Of a stretch of DNA of 64,000 nt, positions 24,284 through 37,179 are shown piece after piece. The notes under the pieces were generated by a model. It searched no databases, had not been told where the DNA came from, and saw only the letters and a program-made list of their open reading frames with translations. The position numbers and the translations under genes are program-made. Positions within the stretch are counted from its first letter, which is position 1, and each line of letters starts with the position of its first letter. Origin of the DNA: Lachnospiraceae bacterium (lineage in GTDB: Bacteria; Bacillota; Clostridia; Lachnospirales; Lachnospiraceae); contig SVEQ01000013.1 in the NCBI GenBank assembly GCA_015057325.1, positions 1 through 64,000 on the forward strand, written 5' to 3'.

Positions 24284-26128
24284 TCATTCCACCACAAACA
24301 GTCTTCCCGAATAGGCTGCCAAGTTAACATAACATCTATTATTTCTGACCGGGGTGGAAATCATGTTTGCACTATTGTTCCCGCCATATATTGCCGCATC
24401 GGTATTAATAAGTTCATTTAACTGATGGTTACCTGATACCCTAATCTCATAATCATGATAATCCCTGTCACTAAAATTAAATATCGCAAGAACTTTTTCG
24501 CCTCCTGCACACCGTTCATATGCATACACAAGGTCATCACGTCTGTCATTTATTATGTATTTAAAACATGCACTGTTATACTCTCCCTCATTAAGTGCCC
24601 TGTGCGACATATAAGTAAGCCCGACATCTTTGGAAAATCTGGCAAACATCTCATGCATGGGAAAATGCATAAGCACATCATAATCCTGTTCTCGCCATTG
24701 CCCCCACTCACGAAACTGTGCTATCTCATTACCCATAAAGGACAACTTCTTTCCGGGATGCGTATACCAATATAAGTAAAATGCTCTATACTGTGCAAAC
24801 TTCTCCTCATAACTTCCATACATCTTATCAATCAATGTCTTCTTACCATGAACAACCTCATCGTGTGAAAAAGCCAGCAAATAAAGTTCATTGTAAAAAT
24901 AGTGCATTGAAAACAGCAATTGGTCATAACGGTTTCTACGCTCATTTATTGGACACGCAAAAAAATCAAGCGTGTCGTGCATAAATCCAAGATCCCACTT
25001 GTAATCAAAACCAAGTCCTTCATACTCCACAGGAGCCGTAACTTTAAGATACGTTGTTGAATCCTCCGCAAACAAAATAGCATGCGGGTGGCGCTCCTTA
25101 ATTCCACGATTGAGACTCTTTACGAACTCAAGTGCCTTCTCATTAACACCACACTCCTGCCGTCCCCTCCAATAGATTACATTGGAAATCGCATCGAATC
25201 TTAATCCATCAAAATGATAGTCCGTAAGCCAGTAATCGGCACATGACTTTAGAAAACTTGCAACCTCTCCTTTTGCATGAAAGAAATTATACGAACCCCA
25301 TTCACTCATCGTGACATCGCTTTGTGGAAGCTCATATAGTTCTCCTCCGTCAAAGTGATTAAGACCATAATCATCCGTTGCAAAATGCACCATAACAAAA
25401 TCCAAAATCACTCCAATGCCTGCTTTATGGCAATCATTTATAAATGATTTTAATCCGTCACACGTTCCATATCTTGATGTAGGTGCAAAAAATCCTGTTG
25501 CCTGATATCCCCAAGATTCATCCAGCGGATGCTCTACTAAAGGCATAATCTCCACATGCGTGTATCCGTTATCCTTAAGATATGGAATTAAAACCTCGCC
25601 CATCTCCTCATAACGATACCATGTATCGTGCACAATATTTGTTTTTTTAGCATTATGTAAACCATTTTCATCATCCGCATTATGTAAACCAGTTGTTTTC
25701 TTCCAAGATCCGAAATGCATCTCAAATATATTAAGCGGTCTGTCGTATCGTTTATCACAATCTCTCATCCACTCATGATCATCAAAAGAAAAGCCATCAC
25801 GTCTTCTTATTATAGATGCTGAACATGGTCTAAGTTCCATTCCAAATCCGTACGGATCAGCTTTATCAGTAACTGTTCCGTCATGATGATATATCCGATA
25901 CTTATACATCTGTCCTTCTTTTGCTTCAGGAATAAAAATAGAGTATATTCCTCCTCTTCCCTCGCAGTCCATAAATATATCTCTCCAGTAATTAAACTCG
26001 CCAATTACGGAAACCTTCTTTGCTCTTGGGGCATAAACACGAAAACGCACACCGTCATTTTCCGGGTGTGCTCCAAAATACTCATATGCTTTCCATTCAT
26101 TACCATTGTAGAAATCGTCAATATTCAT
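24284..26128 (-). CDS. glgB: 1,4-alpha-glucan (glycogen) branching enzyme
   Basis: GH13 enzyme that introduces alpha-1,6 branches into glycogen. The 614-residue protein has an N-terminal CBM48 (about 15-105) and the catalytic barrel with DGLRFDAIS (nucleophile Asp), LFAEDST (acid Glu) and FSHDEVVHGKK. The C-terminal all-beta domain ends normally. Between the conserved FEMHFGSWKKTT and the next helix (about residues 143-165) there is a stretch absent from the E. coli enzyme as I recall it. It contains two copies of the 9-residue unit beginning GLHNA, each encoded by a GTTTACATAA motif. It follows trmL by 31 nt, probably in one operon. No other glg genes are in the window. Confidence 0.95.
   Translation of the reverse strand: MNIDDFYNGNEWKAYEYFGAHPENDGVRFRVYAPRAKKVSVIGEFNYWRDIFMDCEGRGGIYSIFIPEAKEGQMYKYRIYHHDGTVTDKADPYGFGMELRPCSASIIRRRDGFSFDDHEWMRDCDKRYDRPLNIFEMHFGSWKKTTGLHNADDENGLHNAKKTNIVHDTWYRYEEMGEVLIPYLKDNGYTHVEIMPLVEHPLDESWGYQATGFFAPTSRYGTCDGLKSFINDCHKAGIGVILDFVMVHFATDDYGLNHFDGGELYELPQSDVTMSEWGSYNFFHAKGEVASFLKSCADYWLTDYHFDGLRFDAISNVIYWRGRQECGVNEKALEFVKSLNRGIKERHPHAILFAEDSTTYLKVTAPVEYEGLGFDYKWDLGFMHDTLDFFACPINERRNRYDQLLFSMHYFYNELYLLAFSHDEVVHGKKTLIDKMYGSYEEKFAQYRAFYLYWYTHPGKKLSFMGNEIAQFREWGQWREQDYDVLMHFPMHEMFARFSKDVGLTYMSHRALNEGEYNSACFKYIINDRRDDLVYAYERCAGGEKVLAIFNFSDRDYHDYEIRVSGNHQLNELINTDAAIYGGNNSANMISTPVRNNRCYVNLAAYSGRLFVVE
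25653..25689 (-). repeat. Two GTTTACATAA motifs, 27 nt apart, inside glgB
   Basis: Exact 10-mers on the minus strand at 25653-25662 and 25680-25689, in frame with glgB, each encoding Leu-His-Asn as part of GLHNA. Confidence 0.9.
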
Positions 26129-26159
26129 TGTATTATACCTCTAAATGAGCAGATGCATA

Positions 26160-26645
26160 TCACATCTTGCTCATTTTTCCTCCGAGTTCCATATCCATAA
26201 AATTATTCTGACGAAGTGCTTCGTAAAGCACAACGGCAACGGAATTAGATAAGTTGAGTGAACGTATATCCGGAAGCATAGGAATACGTATGCAATTCTC
26301 GCTGTTTGCATAGAGAATATCTTCAGGTATTCCGGCACTCTCCTTACCGAACATTATATAACAATCATCTTCATAATGTGCCTCGGCATAGGTGTACTTT
26401 GCCTTTGTAGTAGCCATGTATATTTTCGCACCCGGATTCTTTTCAAGGAAGTCCTCGTAACTTACGTATCTGGTAACATCCAACTTGTCCCAATAATCCA
26501 TTCCTGCACGCTTGACCATCTTATCATTAAGAATAAAGCCAAGTGGTTCTATAAGATGAAGTCTCGCACCTGTTGCCACGCACGTTCTTCCAATATTACC
26601 GGTATTAGCCGGCATTTCAGGTTCATGTAATACAATATTAATCAT
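26160..26645 (-). CDS. trmL: tRNA (cytidine/uridine-34-2'-O)-methyltransferase
   Basis: A 161-residue SPOUT-class enzyme that methylates the wobble ribose of some leucine tRNAs. It starts MINIVLHEPEMPANTGNIGR, has FGKESAGIPEDIL (the knot motif) and ends with IRSLNLSNSVAVVLYEALRQ, all typical of TrmL (YibK). Length is normal. It has a consensus promoter (26677-26705) and an AAGGAAAG ribosome site. glgB follows after 31 nt. Confidence 0.95.
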   Translation of the reverse strand: MINIVLHEPEMPANTGNIGRTCVATGARLHLIEPLGFILNDKMVKRAGMDYWDKLDVTRYVSYEDFLEKNPGAKIYMATTKAKYTYAEAHYEDDCYIMFGKESAGIPEDILYANSENCIRIPMLPDIRSLNLSNSVAVVLYEALRQNNFMDMELGGKMSKM

Positions 26646-26676
26646 TATCTTTCCTTCTTTCCTCTCGGATTTTACT

Positions 26677-26705
26677 ATTCTATCAAATATTCTCTGTTCT
26701 TACAA
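26677..26705 (-). promoter_or_regulatory. Promoter for trmL-glgB
   Basis: Minus-strand -35 TTGTAA (26700-26705), 17-nt spacer, -10 TAGAAT (26677-26682), about 35 nt before the trmL ATG. Confidence 0.65.
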
Positions 26706-26798
26706 GGCAATATTAGTTGCAACAATAGCTTCAAACAACTTTTTCATAAATGAAAACAAAATGCATATATTAGATGTAAAGAGTACAAGGGTTACTAC

Positions 26799-27338
26799 AT
26801 GGAATTTCCCAACAATCATCCTCTCGATGCCATAACAAAAAATAATCCCTATTCCATGCTAGAAGCCCTGATCCCCTTTGTGGACAGTTCCATGAAGCTT
26901 GCTCTTGCTCTCATAGTCAAATACTATGAGGTTAAAATGATTTTAAATGCATTTAAGTCAAATGATATTATCACGGCATATGGTTTACATAAAGAGTCAA
27001 AAGATCCTATGGATATGATTGCCGGCCTTACCGGAATGTCACCTGATATGCTAAAAACAATCATGTCTGTTATGCAAGAATCCGGAAATTCAGATTCGAA
27101 AGACACGCATTTTCCGAACGTCGTTAGTTTACATAACACAAACAATACAGATACCGGATGTAGTTTACATAACACAGCCACCACAGACTCAGACCATAGT
27201 TTACATAATTCTATGCTTCACACCCAATGCGCTAATACTGACAATGACCGCTGTTTAGATGATAACATATACAAAATCTTCGCTGATTATGATTTAATAC
27301 AAGCAGCCGAATATAACAAGAAAGAGAGGTTTACATAA
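26799..27338 (+). CDS. Hypothetical protein with LHN repeat segment
   Basis: A 179-residue protein I do not recognise. Residues 1-95 look helical and partly hydrophobic (YSMLEALIPFVDSSMKLALA, then IVKYYEVKMILNAF), with a segment DMIAGLTGMSPDMLKTIMSVM. Residues about 110-150 form a low-complexity stretch with three 12-residue units beginning SLHN, each coded by a GTTTACATAA motif; one more motif gives YGLHKES near residue 62. The tail is acidic. Its stop TAA overlaps the ATG of the next gene, so the two are probably translated together. The ribosome site before the ATG is weak (AAGGG). The pair diverges from trmL. Confidence 0.72.
   Translation: MEFPNNHPLDAITKNNPYSMLEALIPFVDSSMKLALALIVKYYEVKMILNAFKSNDIITAYGLHKESKDPMDMIAGLTGMSPDMLKTIMSVMQESGNSDSKDTHFPNVVSLHNTNNTDTGCSLHNTATTDSDHSLHNSMLHTQCANTDNDRCLDDNIYKIFADYDLIQAAEYNKKERFT
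26983..26992 (+). repeat. GTTTACATAA motif copy
   Basis: Exact 10-mer in frame with the hypothetical gene, coding Leu-His-Lys in the phrase YGLHKES. Confidence 0.85.
27126..27214 (+). repeat. 36-bp tandem repeat carrying three GTTTACATAA motifs
   Basis: Exact motifs at 27127-27136, 27163-27172 and 27199-27208, spaced 36 nt. The first 12-15 nt of each unit are conserved and the rest drifts. In frame it encodes three SLHN-headed 12-residue units. Confidence 0.88.
27329..27338 (+). repeat. GTTTACATAA motif at the gene junction
   Basis: This copy spans the end of the first hypothetical gene, supplying its TAA stop, and directly abuts the next ATG (27338-27340). Confidence 0.88.
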
Positions 27339-27601
27339 TGCAACAAAATGATTTTTTTGAAACCAAAGAGTTTCAAATGCTCCACCCATTAAAACAAAAA
27401 ATAATTATGGAACTGGCAACAAACAACACTAACAAATCAATTGAAGCCATTGTTCCTAAAATCATGACAATCAACAAAGAACTTAATAAACGAAACTTAA
27501 GTTTTACAAAAGCAGAAAGCAAACTAATGATAAACATTTTAACAAAAGATATGTCTCCGGCTGAAAAGCAAAAAATAGAGATGATAATGTCAATGATATA
27601 A
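27338..27601 (+). CDS. Hypothetical small protein coupled to the upstream gene
   Basis: An 87-residue helical, charged protein of unknown function: MQQNDFFETKEFQMLHPLKQ at the start, a central NKSIEAIVPKIMTINKEL, and a C-terminal DMSPAEKQKIEMIMSMI. Its start codon shares one base with the stop of the preceding gene, and GAGAGG lies about 11 nt upstream inside that gene. The closing MSP...KIEMIMSM loosely recalls MSPDMLKTIMSVM in the upstream protein, so the two may be distantly related or assemble together. No known domain is visible. Confidence 0.7.
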   Translation: MQQNDFFETKEFQMLHPLKQKIIMELATNNTNKSIEAIVPKIMTINKELNKRNLSFTKAESKLMINILTKDMSPAEKQKIEMIMSMI

Positions 27602-29173: not shown

Positions 29174-30766
29174 TTAATTCTTTCTAAACTCAAGAAGTTC
29201 CAGGCCTTCATTATGCTCAAGTACAGTATTAATAGTCCACTGATTAGTAAATAAAAGCAAAGGATTACCCTTCATATCTTTAACCTTCTTAACTTCATTA
29301 ACACGTTTTAACGAGTTAACATCTGTAGAAGGATCTTTTATCCAGCGAATGAAATTGTATGGCAACGGCTCTAACTTAATCTCACAGCCGTATTCATTTT
29401 CAAGTCTGTATTTGAGTACTTCAAACTGAAGCACACCGACAACGCCTACTATAATCTCAGACATTCCTGCAGTATACTCCTGGAATATCTGAATAGCTCC
29501 CTCCTGGGCAATCTGGGTTACACCCTGTACAAATTGCTTACGCTTCATCGTATTCATCTGCACCACCCTGCAGAAATGTTCTGGTGCAAATGTAGGAATA
29601 CCCTCATATTCAAACTTCTTCCCAGGTTGACATAATGTATCACCTATTGAGAAAATACCGGGATCGAAAACACCAATAACGTCACCTGCATAAGCCTCGT
29701 CAACAACCTTCCTGTCCTGTGCCATAAGCTGCTGTGGCTGTGAAAGTTTCATTTTTCTCTTGCTCTGAACATGATAAATGTCTTTGCTTGCATCAAATCG
29801 CCCAGAACAAATTCTCATAAATGCAATTCTGTCTCGATGTGCCTTATTCATATTCGCCTGAATCTTGAATACAAATGCCGAGAAGTCTTCACTCATAGGA
29901 TCAATAAGACCTTCATTTGACATTCTCGGGAGAGGTGATGTCGTCATTTTGAGGAAATGATTAAGGAACGTCTCGATACCAAATGTATTAAGTGCAGAAC
30001 CGAAGAAGACCGGTGAAAGTTCACCTTTATCAACCTTTTCCTGATCAAGAGGTTCACTTGCTCCATCTAAAAGTTCAACTTCTTCCATAAGTTGATTATA
30101 TAATTCCTCCCCTATATCATTTTTAAGTTGTTCATCATCTATTGAATAATCAGTCTCTTCAGCCTTCTTAGCTCCTCCTGTTGACACCGCCTGGAACTTA
30201 GATACTACTCTCGACTCTCTATCATACACACCCTTAAACTGTTTACCCGAACCGATAGGCCAATTAACGGGACATGTCTGAATACCCAAAACCGTCTCTA
30301 TATCATCAAGAAGTTCAAATGTATCCTTTGCATCTCTATCCATCTTATTGATAAATGTAAATATCGGGATATGTCTCATAACACAGACCTTGAAAAGTTT
30401 GATTGTCTGTGCCTCAACACCCTTAGACGCATCTATCACCATCACAGCGGAATCCGCTGCCATAAGAGTTCTGTAGGTATCCTCCGAGAAATCCTGATGT
30501 CCCGGAGTATCAAGGATATTGATACAATATCCATCATACTGAAACTGCAATACAGAAGAAGTAACCGAGATACCTCTCTCCTTCTCTATATCCATCCAGT
30601 CCGAAACAGCATACTTTGAATTAGCCTTACCTTTAACCGAACCGGCTGTGTTTATCGCACCACCAAAGAGAAGAAACTTCTCCGTAAGCGTCGTCTTACC
30701 TGCATCCGGATGCGAGATAATCGCAAATGTACGTCGTTTCTCTATTTCTTTTTTAATATCTGACAT
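29174..30766 (-). CDS. prfC: Peptide chain release factor 3
   Basis: A translational GTPase that removes RF1 or RF2 from the ribosome after peptide release. The 530-residue protein has the P-loop SHPDAGKTTLTEK, switch II DTPGHQDFSEDTYR, and NKMDRD; the C-terminal domain III is complete. The start chosen (ATG at 30764-30766, MSDIKKEIEKRRTF) has GTGGAG about 7 nt upstream and gives the family length. An in-frame extension of 30 codons upstream runs into the palindromic repeat and is not believed. The gene follows a 561-nt spacer after leuS. Confidence 0.95.
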   Translation of the reverse strand: MSDIKKEIEKRRTFAIISHPDAGKTTLTEKFLLFGGAINTAGSVKGKANSKYAVSDWMDIEKERGISVTSSVLQFQYDGYCINILDTPGHQDFSEDTYRTLMAADSAVMVIDASKGVEAQTIKLFKVCVMRHIPIFTFINKMDRDAKDTFELLDDIETVLGIQTCPVNWPIGSGKQFKGVYDRESRVVSKFQAVSTGGAKKAEETDYSIDDEQLKNDIGEELYNQLMEEVELLDGASEPLDQEKVDKGELSPVFFGSALNTFGIETFLNHFLKMTTSPLPRMSNEGLIDPMSEDFSAFVFKIQANMNKAHRDRIAFMRICSGRFDASKDIYHVQSKRKMKLSQPQQLMAQDRKVVDEAYAGDVIGVFDPGIFSIGDTLCQPGKKFEYEGIPTFAPEHFCRVVQMNTMKRKQFVQGVTQIAQEGAIQIFQEYTAGMSEIIVGVVGVLQFEVLKYRLENEYGCEIKLEPLPYNFIRWIKDPSTDVNSLKRVNEVKKVKDMKGNPLLLFTNQWTINTVLEHNEGLELLEFRKN

Positions 30767-33906: not shown

Positions 33907-35754
33907 TTATTCTTTTCCCTCAAATGTCACATAATTACCTTCATGTTTCTTACTGATGTAAGTTCCCTGATCAGCTCTCTTATAAAGTTCATCAAATGAA
34001 TACGTATCTCCTGACAGATAAAATGCAACACCCATACTTACGCAAATCTTTCTGTCTTTTAATTCTTTAATTTGTATTTGATTAATATTTTCAAAGAACC
34101 TTTCAATAATTGGTCGACCCATTTTCTCATTCATAACAGTAGGTGCATAAGCCGCAAACTCATCACCGCCAAGTCTTAACACCACATCATTACCTCTAAA
34201 TGATTTCTTAAGACAATTAGCAATCTCAATTAGAACCTGATCTCCGACACCGTGTCCGTAGTTATCATTTATCGACTTAAACTTATCTGCGTCAAGTAAG
34301 CAGAACATTCCGCCACGTCCATTCTCAATCAACTCACGAATCTTGGTCTCTCCACCGCCTCTGTTAAGGATTCCCGTCATGCGGTCAGTCTCAGATAAAT
34401 ATTGAAGATTATCTCGTTGACGTTTCTCATCATCAATTGCCTCAACCATGTACAAAACTCTGTAAAGTGTCTTGTCATCATTATAATCTACGGCAACAAA
34501 CCTTGCACGGAACCACATGTTATTGTCATTAAGGAACTCCTGCGTCACTGTACCATTTACTTTGAGACGTTCATCAAGCGTTGATAAATCAAGGAACGTT
34601 TCCATAGATTTTTTGGAAATCTCCGCCGTCTTCATATCCATCACAAGTTTTAATGTATCACCCGCATGTTCAGTACCGTTAAGCAACATAGCACTTATTT
34701 CCGGCGTACTTGTTATCTCTTTAAATGTATCATTGTTAAGATTAATCATATGTACCGTCGTATAGATTGCTGACACGGAACGAAGCTGTATATTGAGGTT
34801 TTCGGCTTCCGTACGCTTTTGCGTCAGTTTAATAAAAATAGCACTTATTACACCGACAAAGAATATTAACACAATAAAGAATATAAAATATATTCCCTTA
34901 AGTGGACCATATAGACTGTTTTCATTCATAACTGTAAGCGCATGCCAGTCGTTACCTATCGGCGCAGAAAATACCATATAACGCACACCGTTATATTGAA
35001 CAACGAAAGTCTTTTCTTTTGTTTCAAAAAGTTTCTTGGCAACAATACTACCAAAACTTCCCGAATCATTAAGATAAGATTGTCCGACCTTTGACTGTGC
35101 TGAATGAGCAACTACCGTCCCATCATCAGATAACACCAACGCGTAGTTACCTTCTCCCTTTGGAACACGCTCCTTAGTTATTTCCTGTATCTCATCCAAA
35201 ACAGCATCTACAGAAATAACACTTTTACCATCAGACAACATCCTGCTAACGGACATTACCATACTACCTGTCTCCATATCAAGATACGGTGAGATAAGAG
35301 TAACCTCACCATCAGCCTCAATGGCACTCTTATACCAAGTTCTGGATTCAGGTATATAATCATCATCCGGAACCCAATCAGATCCATCAAGATACTCGCC
35401 ATCAAACACACCGTAAAGCCCTGTATAATTCATCCCGATTGCATTCTTATAAATATCGGTCTGCTCAACAAGATATGCATGTATCTCTGCCGAAGATGCA
35501 CCGTTTAGCATCATTTTATTAATCGTATAAGAAGTAATTTCAATCGACTTTGTACTATCACTAAGTATTTCATTTGTTTTAATAGCTGACTGTTCAACAT
35601 CATTCTGTTGTGAATCAATTATATTGTTTCTCGAACTTTTAAAGAGAGCATAAAAATTCAAGAAAATAAGCACCGAAAATGCAACAATCGCTAAAATAAA
35701 TATATGAACATACGCTTTCATTGACTTCTGTGAAGATTTTAAATATTTATCCAT
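33907..35754 (-). CDS. Membrane diguanylate cyclase with Cache sensor and PAS-like region
   Basis: A 615-residue protein: N-terminal helix (about 15-38), a dCache-type extracellular sensor (about 40-280, with WYKSAIEADGEVTLISPYLD), second helix (about 285-310), a PAS-like region (about 325-440) and a GGDEF domain (about 455-615). The motif LGGDEFA is intact and RGND, five residues before it, fits the RxxD inhibitory site, so feedback by cyclic di-GMP is likely. The start chosen (MDKYLKSSQ) has AGGGGA just upstream; an upstream start five codons earlier is less likely. Promoter and terminator are both visible, so it is probably monocistronic. Confidence 0.9.
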   Translation of the reverse strand: MDKYLKSSQKSMKAYVHIFILAIVAFSVLIFLNFYALFKSSRNNIIDSQQNDVEQSAIKTNEILSDSTKSIEITSYTINKMMLNGASSAEIHAYLVEQTDIYKNAIGMNYTGLYGVFDGEYLDGSDWVPDDDYIPESRTWYKSAIEADGEVTLISPYLDMETGSMVMSVSRMLSDGKSVISVDAVLDEIQEITKERVPKGEGNYALVLSDDGTVVAHSAQSKVGQSYLNDSGSFGSIVAKKLFETKEKTFVVQYNGVRYMVFSAPIGNDWHALTVMNENSLYGPLKGIYFIFFIVLIFFVGVISAIFIKLTQKRTEAENLNIQLRSVSAIYTTVHMINLNNDTFKEITSTPEISAMLLNGTEHAGDTLKLVMDMKTAEISKKSMETFLDLSTLDERLKVNGTVTQEFLNDNNMWFRARFVAVDYNDDKTLYRVLYMVEAIDDEKRQRDNLQYLSETDRMTGILNRGGGETKIRELIENGRGGMFCLLDADKFKSINDNYGHGVGDQVLIEIANCLKKSFRGNDVVLRLGGDEFAAYAPTVMNEKMGRPIIERFFENINQIQIKELKDRKICVSMGVAFYLSGDTYSFDELYKRADQGTYISKKHEGNYVTFEGKE

Positions 35755-35789
35755 AATTTCCCCTAACAAAAAAACATAATTATGTGCTT

Positions 35790-35856: not shown

Positions 35857-35866
35857 TTATGTAAAC
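35857..35866 (-). repeat. Isolated GTTTACATAA motif in an intergenic region
   Basis: Exact minus-strand copy, 8.5 kb from the cluster, about 100 nt upstream of the diguanylate cyclase start. Confidence 0.8.
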
Positions 35867-35917: not shown

Positions 35918-37147
35918 TCATTTAATTGTAGGGTCTGTAGGATCCCACGTATGTCCTGAGGATAATTTTTTGATTGTCGGCTTATCGAATGGTCCCGGAT
36001 TTTTCTTATTGTTGTATATTTCCACCTTAGTACCAACATCACAATTATCATATATCCATTTACAATCTCCGGCTCTCAAACGAACACAGCCATGAGATGC
36101 CATTGTTCCAAGCTTATTGTAAGCGCCGACATTTAACGATTTTTTATCTCTTTCTTTGTCGTAATAAACAGAATGGAATAAAATATCAGTTGTCAAATGC
36201 ATACACCACTGACCCCAGCAAGGTCCCATCAACTCATGCCATCTAAGCTTATCCTTGATTGTGAATGAACCCTTAGGTGTTTCCTTACCTGCAGAACAAA
36301 TGAAAGCAACAACAGGGATTGTAAATCCGTTATCTCCGTCCTTTGCGTAAACCGTCACACAACTTGCAGTTCTGTTAACTCTTATAAAATACTCTTTCTT
36401 TTGAGTTTTGGTAAGTTTTTTTCTCACATCCTGAACAAGTTGACCCTTGCTGTTAAAGAAGTACTTGAACTTTCCGATGTAGTTCCAATCTTTGAGTGCT
36501 TCATAACTTTCTTTGTCAAAATAATATCTTTTGCCCTTGTCATTTCTATACCAGCCACTCTTTAACGAAGCATCTTTTTGTACACAATAATAATGGCCAT
36601 TTAACTTCGAAACGCCTTCTTTTTCATAGCGTGCTCCACCTTTTTTTGCGAAGTAATATGCCTTATCATCAGCATAATGCACACCATATAAAGCATAGTG
36701 TTCATCACAAAAGCAATAATATTTTTTCCCTATTTTCTGTACACCGACACCTGTAAATAGCTTTCCTTTTTTATCAAAATAGTAAAGTTTTCCATCAATG
36801 ACATTCCAGCCCGTGACCTTTTCATCAGAATCATAGTATGCTGTTTTCTTTTTATTCCAGAATGTACTTGCACCGTCTGTTTCAAATTCCGATACATCTT
36901 CATCATACGCTACCGCACGCTCATATTCATGTTTGTCGGCACTTTGTGAAGTTACAGTCGTTTCAGTTGATGTAGAAGTCTCTGTAGTAACCATGGTACT
37001 CTTTTCTTCCGAAGTATTTTGTGTGGTTGGTTGTGCCGGCTGAGACGGAATGGTAATCTCCTTAGCTTTTGTAGTATTTGCACATACAACCAATAATACA
37101 GTCATTAGCGTAAGAGATGTTATGCTAACTCTATTTTTGCGAATCAT
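35918..37147 (-). CDS. Secreted L,D-transpeptidase with wall-binding repeats
   Basis: A 409-residue exported protein: signal segment (about 1-28), Thr/Ser-rich linker (about 35-85), four to six choline-binding-like repeats (about 95-260; e.g. GWNVIDGKLYYFDKKGKL) and a YkuD catalytic domain (about 265-390) with the active motif SHGCVRLRAGD and its upstream histidine. Such enzymes form 3-3 cross-links in peptidoglycan or attach proteins to it. The start is uncertain: GGAGG stands 8 nt before a GTG and 11 nt before the ATG used here. It is the last gene of the operon that starts at glmS, 32 nt after the GH5 gene. Confidence 0.9.
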   Translation of the reverse strand: MIRKNRVSITSLTLMTVLLVVCANTTKAKEITIPSQPAQPTTQNTSEEKSTMVTTETSTSTETTVTSQSADKHEYERAVAYDEDVSEFETDGASTFWNKKKTAYYDSDEKVTGWNVIDGKLYYFDKKGKLFTGVGVQKIGKKYYCFCDEHYALYGVHYADDKAYYFAKKGGARYEKEGVSKLNGHYYCVQKDASLKSGWYRNDKGKRYYFDKESYEALKDWNYIGKFKYFFNSKGQLVQDVRKKLTKTQKKEYFIRVNRTASCVTVYAKDGDNGFTIPVVAFICSAGKETPKGSFTIKDKLRWHELMGPCWGQWCMHLTTDILFHSVYYDKERDKKSLNVGAYNKLGTMASHGCVRLRAGDCKWIYDNCDVGTKVEIYNNKKNPGPFDKPTIKKLSSGHTWDPTDPTIK

Positions 37148-37179
37148 CACTTTGTTTACCTCCATTTGCATACACAATA

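Follow-up and report, generated by a model that had tools for sequence, protein, structure and literature searches.

Why should one short word recur eight times in a stretch of bacterial chromosome, with nearly all copies crowded into and around two genes? The question is raised by the first 64,000 nucleotides (forward strand) of contig SVEQ01000013.1 of a Lachnospiraceae bacterium (GenBank assembly GCA_015057325.1), which we call the window, and by the 10-mer GTTTACATAA found in it. An earlier note on this DNA had listed eight exact copies, and their positions and strands proved correct (Table 1). The excess over chance was also confirmed, since 100 dinucleotide shuffles gave a mean of 0.30 copies and a maximum of 2. 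Seven of the eight lie inside 1.7 kb, two on the minus strand in glgB, which encodes glycogen branching enzyme, and five on the plus strand within, or closing, the open reading frame (ORF) 26799-27338. The note had offered two readings, a selfish repeat spreading through coding DNA or a binding site tolerated in genes. Our analysis favours the latter and does not support the former. From their sequence, the repeats probably serve the tyrosine recombinase XerD as binding half-sites, TTATGTHAACY, equivalent to the XerD arm of dif (the site of dimer resolution) with the XerC arm missing. The binding-site idea is favoured because the word matches the XerD arm, because its copy number tracks XerD, and because sites are kept while their surroundings turn over.

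The window's genome (G000; we use G for genomes, C for contigs and L for loci) comprises 3.05 Mb in 24 contigs, the window's contig being C15. A genome-wide count gave 30 exact copies against 20 of the reversed control word. The excess is thus only modest (1.5-fold) across the genome, and the clustering is the striking part: besides the eight copies in the window, five lie inside 2.4 kb of C3. The wider word GTTNACATAA occurs 71 times (fourth base T 30, G 22, A 18, C 1), with 10 copies in 3.5 kb of C3, among what we take to be folate genes, and 16 in 68.7 kb of C15. Some of what the earlier note had read into the copies needs narrowing. The copy at 35857-35866 is not in a gene but between two minus-strand ORFs. 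The Leu-His-Asn coding, which the note gave for most copies, does not hold for 27329-27338, which gives a TAA stop and then the A of the next ATG. The sense-only orientation is true locally and fails genome-wide, where several copies run antisense in long ORFs (e.g. L002 and L025, presumably folP and dnaG).

Read on the opposite strand, GTTTACATAA becomes TTATGTAAAC, the XerD-binding arm of dif. Published dif sequences are TTATGTAAACT in Bacillus subtilis, TTATGTTAAAT in Escherichia coli and TTATGTCAAGT in Frankia alni (PMC3025954), and dif positions 23 and 24 are described as variable, with position 24 predicted to contact XerD residue Q221 (PMC2731167). The word family here, TTATGTHAAC, has a single free base, dif position 24, and in most cases T or C comes next. 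Whereas the arm TTATGTNAAC is present exactly at all copies by design of the search, position 28 was fixed in no search, and across 450 array sites it was T at a frequency of 0.47 and C at 0.42; weaker base preferences were seen at positions 15, 17 and 29 of the same sites. The XerC arm, which would lie 6 bp away to give 28 bp in total, was attached to none of the copies examined. In G000 there was no match at up to 3 mismatches to a Firmicutes-type dif 23-mer, and the four sites with AKAA at XerC-arm distance matched only 5, 4, 4 and 3 of the 11 arm bases. A loose pattern for canonical dif gave 33 matches in 13 genomes, and the best XerC arm in the 30 loci read had 8 of 11 bases; the single dif-like 28-mer (25/28) among the collected loci belonged to a Desulfobacterales contig. 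Nor do the copies form the one-copy terminus site expected of dif, as they are many and terminus regions are sparse in them.

The abundance of the word follows the xerD gene. Genomes were classed by their best TIGR02225 hit, with XerD clear at E <= 1e-88 and a weak-or-no-hit class for hits above 1e-54 or missing. Across 397 Lachnospiraceae genomes, some of which carried 50-128 exact copies against fewer than 10 of the controls and 8 of which had none, the median density per Mb was 5.0 with clear XerD (182 genomes), 2.2 in the weak-or-no-hit class (169) and 2.45 in between (46). The contrast between the two outer classes was marked (Mann-Whitney p 4e-19), although the density p-values are corrected for phylogeny only through a contrast between genera, a point to be held against our interpretation. 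In that contrast, a mean of 5 per Mb was reached by 16 of 27 two-genome genera with XerD in both members vs 0 of 29 with clear XerD in neither. XerD scored over the TIGR02225 cut-off in G000 and in 9 of the 10 genomes searched.

Direct arrays of 3-10 copies were found in many Lachnospiraceae and some other Clostridia, both within and between genes; two intergenic examples pack 10 copies into about 240 bp and 8 into about 320 bp. A scan for triple arrays, with one genome per species and start-to-start gaps of 20-50 nt, returned at least 120 stretches, and those listed comprised 101 labelled as Lachnospiraceae, Oscillospiraceae or other Clostridia, 6 unlabelled and 13 others. Neighbour gaps were commonest at 20-22 nt (56/330) and 30-36 nt (135/330), in a histogram whose shape is bounded by the 20-50 nt allowed. 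Separately, six exact copies at G357:C4:52736-53221 alternate in spacing between 94 and 97 nt and are probably a tandem repeat. Triple arrays also stand on 21 stretches from the viral collection IMG/VR (L096-L116), some being exact tandem repeats and others resembling bacterial arrays, so that mobile elements may carry XerD sites. Outside Clostridia, a parS-like word (one mismatch) in a metagenome-assembled Riflebacteria genome is surrounded by four half-sites (L231:7613-7818).

We then considered where on the chromosome the sites lie. With origin and terminus set by eye from skew samples, the origin-side half held 44 of 51 sites in G102, a nearly closed genome with a 3.59-Mb contig (51 of its 52 sites used, one on contig C2 left out), and 63 of 72 in the closed G282. 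The G102 contig starts with genes we take to be dnaA, dnaN, recF, gyrB and gyrA. After collapsing sites within 2 kb, 41 of 48 (G102) and 42 of 50 (G282) remained on the origin side. Control 10-mers with an identical base composition, counted in sampled stretches, were 1.4 times denser on that side in G102 and slightly rarer in G282. G282 also carries a repeated cassette, in which three half-sites are spaced 74/114 nt, at C1 ~273.3, 293.7, 1043.4 and 2767.1 kb. Its count is inflated by this repetition at four or more places, and the 2-kb collapsing merges copies within a cassette but not separate cassettes. The densest stretch of G282 carries soj- and spo0J-type genes (by Pfam) and four perfect parS sites, flanked to left and right by half-sites at a distance of 1.1-1.5 kb. 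Just upstream of its parB, an inverted pair of half-sites with 6 bp between them (L443:6968-6993) resembles a dif made symmetric by having a XerD arm on each side. One half-site of G000 abuts a DnaA box in the interval separating the presumed dnaA and rpmH genes. Contig C16 of that genome ends at oriC, and its GC skew goes from +0.295 (1-7 kb) to about -0.2 (50-62 kb); given this pattern despite oriC at the contig end, C16 may hold an inversion or misassembly. In G357, for which 50 of 116 sites were listed, complete for GTTTACATAA only, the sampled contigs were mixed, with sites toward the terminus side on C9 and C15 and away from it on C3. Of the window's ORFs, a single one matched a sampled stretch, too little to locate the window between origin and terminus. 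A replication-terminus domain, our initial expectation for XerD sites, had looked right on C7 of G445, where density rises toward the terminus end, but was dropped: the terminus of that genome lies on the sparse C5, and the sites of G102 and G282 fall in the origin-side half.

At the terminus of the genomes tested lies a gene for another, XerS-like recombinase. G000 encodes two Xer proteins, XerD (346 bits, over the cut-off) and a 353-residue protein that scores best against XerS among the NCBIfam models (229 bits); there was no third Xer hit at E <= 1e-40, and no recognisable XerC or dif. Such XerS-like proteins (353-355 residues) scored 228.9, 194.7 and 217.5 bits against NF003462, all under the XerS cut-off of 267. 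The GC-skew switch bracketed the gene in all three genomes tested (G000, G357 and G445; Table 1). By eye, imperfect inverted repeats stand beside it, one common to G060 and G445 and another to G000 and G400. Streptococcal XerS acts at the adjacent site difSL (PMC5357621). From this and the terminus position of the XerS-like gene, dimer resolution has probably passed to the XerS-like protein, leaving XerD free. G400, G060, G370 and G445 encode a further XerC/XerD-like protein (234-239 bits for XerD), which may be a XerC-like partner.

Taken together, these findings suggest the following course of events. XerD, judged from the match to its arm, likely binds the array copies, perhaps cooperatively, and since the half-sites lack the second arm, and where no XerC partner is at hand, they should bind XerD without strand exchange. 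The single XerS-like recombinase at the terminus would resolve dimers while XerD persists, in G000 without XerC or recognisable dif, and in some species XerD would also bind sites in its own promoter. In B. subtilis, XerD unloads structural maintenance of chromosomes (SMC) complexes near the terminus in a sequence-specific manner (cited in PMC12322038, PMC8357415 and PMC13342612). By analogy, SMC complexes that have been loaded at parS might be halted or released at bound arrays, which would serve as roadblocks or unloading stations mainly on the arms or in the origin-side half. This SMC role is a guess that the parS neighbourhood supports, and we would not yet wager on it. The full picture is somewhat more tentative still: XerD could be a chromosome organiser in many Lachnospiraceae, with dimer resolution left to the terminus-linked XerS-like protein, and with half-site arrays, some written as Leu-His-Asn repeats, fencing the origin-side part and parS, so that SMC would be stopped or unloaded there and not at the terminus.

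Several observations weigh against this picture. In only four of six genera mixed for xerD did the XerD-negative member have the lower density. Some XerD-positive genomes hold few copies: G061 (4, control 33), G025 (3, 25), G014 (6, 37) and G339 (6, 55). Others are rich in copies without a clear XerD, namely G033 (90% complete, 60 copies, best Xer hit 1e-48), G255 and G157 (hits 1e-73 and 7e-69) and the incomplete G064, G128 and G388. Enrichment in G000 is mild, as noted above, and GTTDACATAA shows no overall excess in G282 (72 vs 72 reversed; 52 vs 36 in G102). The sites do not concentrate at the terminus, where XerD of B. subtilis acts on SMC; the terminus contig C5 of G445 has 8 sites in 451 kb, and C17 of G000 has 3 GTTD sites in 269 kb. 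G445 is not origin-peaked either: of the 100 sites listed among its 128, 59 fall on one arm contig and 2 on the origin contig, which was placed by its match to gyrA and gyrB. Finally, the upstream flanks of xerD in G331 and G357 contain no exact site, and in the flanks of G445, G370 and G060 any such site is about 900 bp or more from the gene.

It is also conceivable, though unlikely, that the arrays are operators and that XerD, alone or with a partner, is mainly a transcription regulator of many operons including its own gene. The xerD promoter of G000 does carry TTATGTAAAC about 130 bp ahead of the start; that of G400 has TTATGTTAAC at the same place, differing only at position 24, and the upstream region holds an exact copy in G365 and a near-match in G188. 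A four-copy array with gaps of 34-35, 13 and 33-35 is conserved at 11 loci from Oscillospiraceae and other Clostridia (L137, L143, L150, L155, L157, L160, L168, L175, L177, L178 and L194), adjoining a reductase gene. Downstream of it, SpoIIM-like and Xer-like genes follow in 7 of the 11; in 2 a SpoIIM-like gene is present and the locus then stops, in 1 another gene follows, and one locus is too short. In L150 the reductase has EF-P reductase YmfI as its best hit, the Xer protein XerD (309 bits, cut-off 330) and the SpoIIM-like protein SpoIIM (66 bits, cut-off 100). The promoter sites and this array speak for our main reading as well. Arrays in G331 likewise precede genes presumed to be dhaK-like and iron-transport-like. 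However, copies also lie inside, at the ends of or downstream of genes (glgB, ORF 26799-27338, and after a thrS-like ORF in L088), their neighbours share no common function by reading, with no formal test, and copies concentrate by chromosome region.

A different DNA-binding protein with a similar site, co-inherited with xerD, is a rather improbable occupant of the arrays. The association with xerD is statistical, and G033, G255 and G157 would fit such a protein, but the match to the XerD arm extends to the free position 24 and to position 28, and in some species sites stand in the promoter of xerD itself.

Could the residues, and not the DNA, be what is conserved? The earlier note had regarded conservation of the same residues in distant orthologues as decisive against a DNA element. 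Some single copies do behave in this way, recurring at the same codon in several orthologues (GLH in ORF 26799-27338, glgB nt 961 and prfC nt 1131), and the 1.5-fold count in G000 would suit chance; the three-copy array and the copies in the glgB loop do not. When the array was compared with G400, of the same genus, its 36/36-nt spacing was kept and the sites were identical at 30 of 30 bases, whereas the spacers matched at 25 of 78 (32%). The alignment runs at 98% identity for 1.2 kb to the left of the array and then diverges, the array lying inside the diverged part. That 98% stretch (L061 alignment columns 575-1802, window ~25830-27060) stands out from neighbouring alignable DNA at 76-87%, which suggests recent gene exchange between the species of G000 and G400. 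In G000, G400 and G407 the glgB copies all fall in one part of the gene, but their exact place varies. At GLH(N/K), exact word codons were used in 14 of 15 genes able to complete the word vs 1 of 8 unable to (Fisher p 0.0002, ignoring gene relatedness), so that synonymous codon choice follows completeness of the DNA word. Hence DNA, and not protein alone, is kept at these sites. Together with the intergenic arrays in several genera and the association of density with xerD, this makes ordinary conserved protein sequence with chance a very improbable account.

A short selfish repeat copying itself into genes is the least credible of all, for although there are clusters and in-frame copies, spread over many taxa, and some arrays (L113, L131 and L183 among them) are simple tandem repeats, spacers included, the 450 array sites show no strong common flank outside the 11-mer, arrays stand between genes, spacing is equal between two species with diverged spacers, and copy number is tied to xerD. 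Two other candidates were rejected. For IS21-type or other transposon ends, no transposase was seen by eye near the few arrays read, and no family search was made; a DNA uptake sequence or FtsK-guiding motif was dropped in view of the direct-copy arrays and the occurrence of both strands in one replichore.

The features are collected in Table 1, including the seven GTTA/GTTG variants of the window. Matches to ORF 26799-27338 (E <= 0.001) were confined to the same genus, with 22 besides itself in the 60 genomes searched. This ORF overlaps ORF 27338-27601, and neither has a Pfam match.

Table 1. Putative XerD half-sites and associated genes (window coordinates unless a contig is given).
Feature	Position	Strand	Remark
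Half-site GTTTACATAA in glgB	25653..25662	-	codes GLHN in an apparent variable loop; position differs among G000, G400 and G407
Second half-site, same part of glgB	25680..25689	-	27 nt from the first
Half-site at GLHK, ORF 26799-27338	26983..26992	+	same nt position is GTTTACATAA in 14/23 genes, including this one
Array copy 1, SLHN	27127..27136	+	
Array copy 2, SLHN	27163..27172	+	36 nt after copy 1
Array copy 3, SLHN	27199..27208	+	36 nt after copy 2
Half-site forming the stop codon of ORF 26799-27338 and first base of the next start codon	27329..27338	+	also in G400
Intergenic half-site between ORFs 33907-35769 and 35918-37177	35857..35866	-	
Variant half-site GTTAACATAA near the glgB 3' end, antisense	24323..24332	+	
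Variant GTTGACATAA, antisense in prfC-like ORF	29626..29635	+	coding position that recurs (nt 1131) among several relatives
Variant GTTGACATAA	38499..38508	+	
Variant GTTAACATAA	38805..38814	+	60 nt ahead of the next GTTAACATAA
Variant GTTAACATAA	38865..38874	+	
Variant GTTGACATAA	54697..54706	-	
Variant GTTGACATAA	60665..60674	-	
glgB, glycogen branching enzyme gene, with two copies	24284..26128	-	Pfam CBM_48, Alpha-amylase, GlgB_N
Array-carrying ORF, 179 aa	26799..27338	+	no Pfam match at E <= 0.01
XerS-like gene, G000	C17:185865-186737		skew switch 177-195 kb, gene at 186 kb
XerS-like gene, G357	C8:45765-46655		skew switch 42-50 kb, gene at 46 kb
XerS-like gene, G445	C5:252608-253504		skew switch 248-264 kb, gene at 253 kb

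Among the results listed from the open-licence literature we found no dispersed XerD half-site arrays on chromosome arms or the origin side combined with a XerS-like recombinase at the terminus, no match to the 10-mer or its IUPAC forms as whole words, and nothing on XerS together with Lachnospiraceae. In B. subtilis, the two roles of XerD, in SMC unloading and dimer resolution, share the terminus and are therefore hard to tell apart; genomes that have arrays of XerD half-sites yet lack a recognisable XerC or dif would offer a natural separation of them. The contrast between genomes with and without xerD, along with the shift from the terminus to the arms and origin side, would make the question of SMC exit sites directly testable. 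The repeats in the window would further illustrate how a strong DNA-binding site can leave its mark on the sequence of proteins.

Compared with known systems, the word equals positions 18-27 of dif, the XerD arm, with the same free position 24 and a T/C preference at position 28, whereas the copies here lack the XerC arm, are neither unique nor at the terminus, and often form arrays. Karaboja et al. reportedly described XerD-dependent SMC unloading at the B. subtilis terminus in 2021. B. subtilis also has further XerD sites away from dif. The likeness to that system lies in the presence of XerD and of XerD-type sites, the SMC role here being drawn by analogy; the difference is that our sites gather away from the skew terminus, in the origin-side half of two genomes (one closed, the other nearly so) or on a single arm of one draft. 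As to streptococcal XerS/difSL, the recombinase here has 353-355 residues, XerS as its best NCBIfam hit and a terminus position in three of three genomes, but it scores at 195-229 bits, below the cut-off of 267. MatP/matS and ParB/parS are chromosome-domain systems in which many copies of a short site mark a region. The half-sites resemble them in marking a chromosome region with many short copies, and differ in both protein and sequence: in G282 they flank parS but are not parS.

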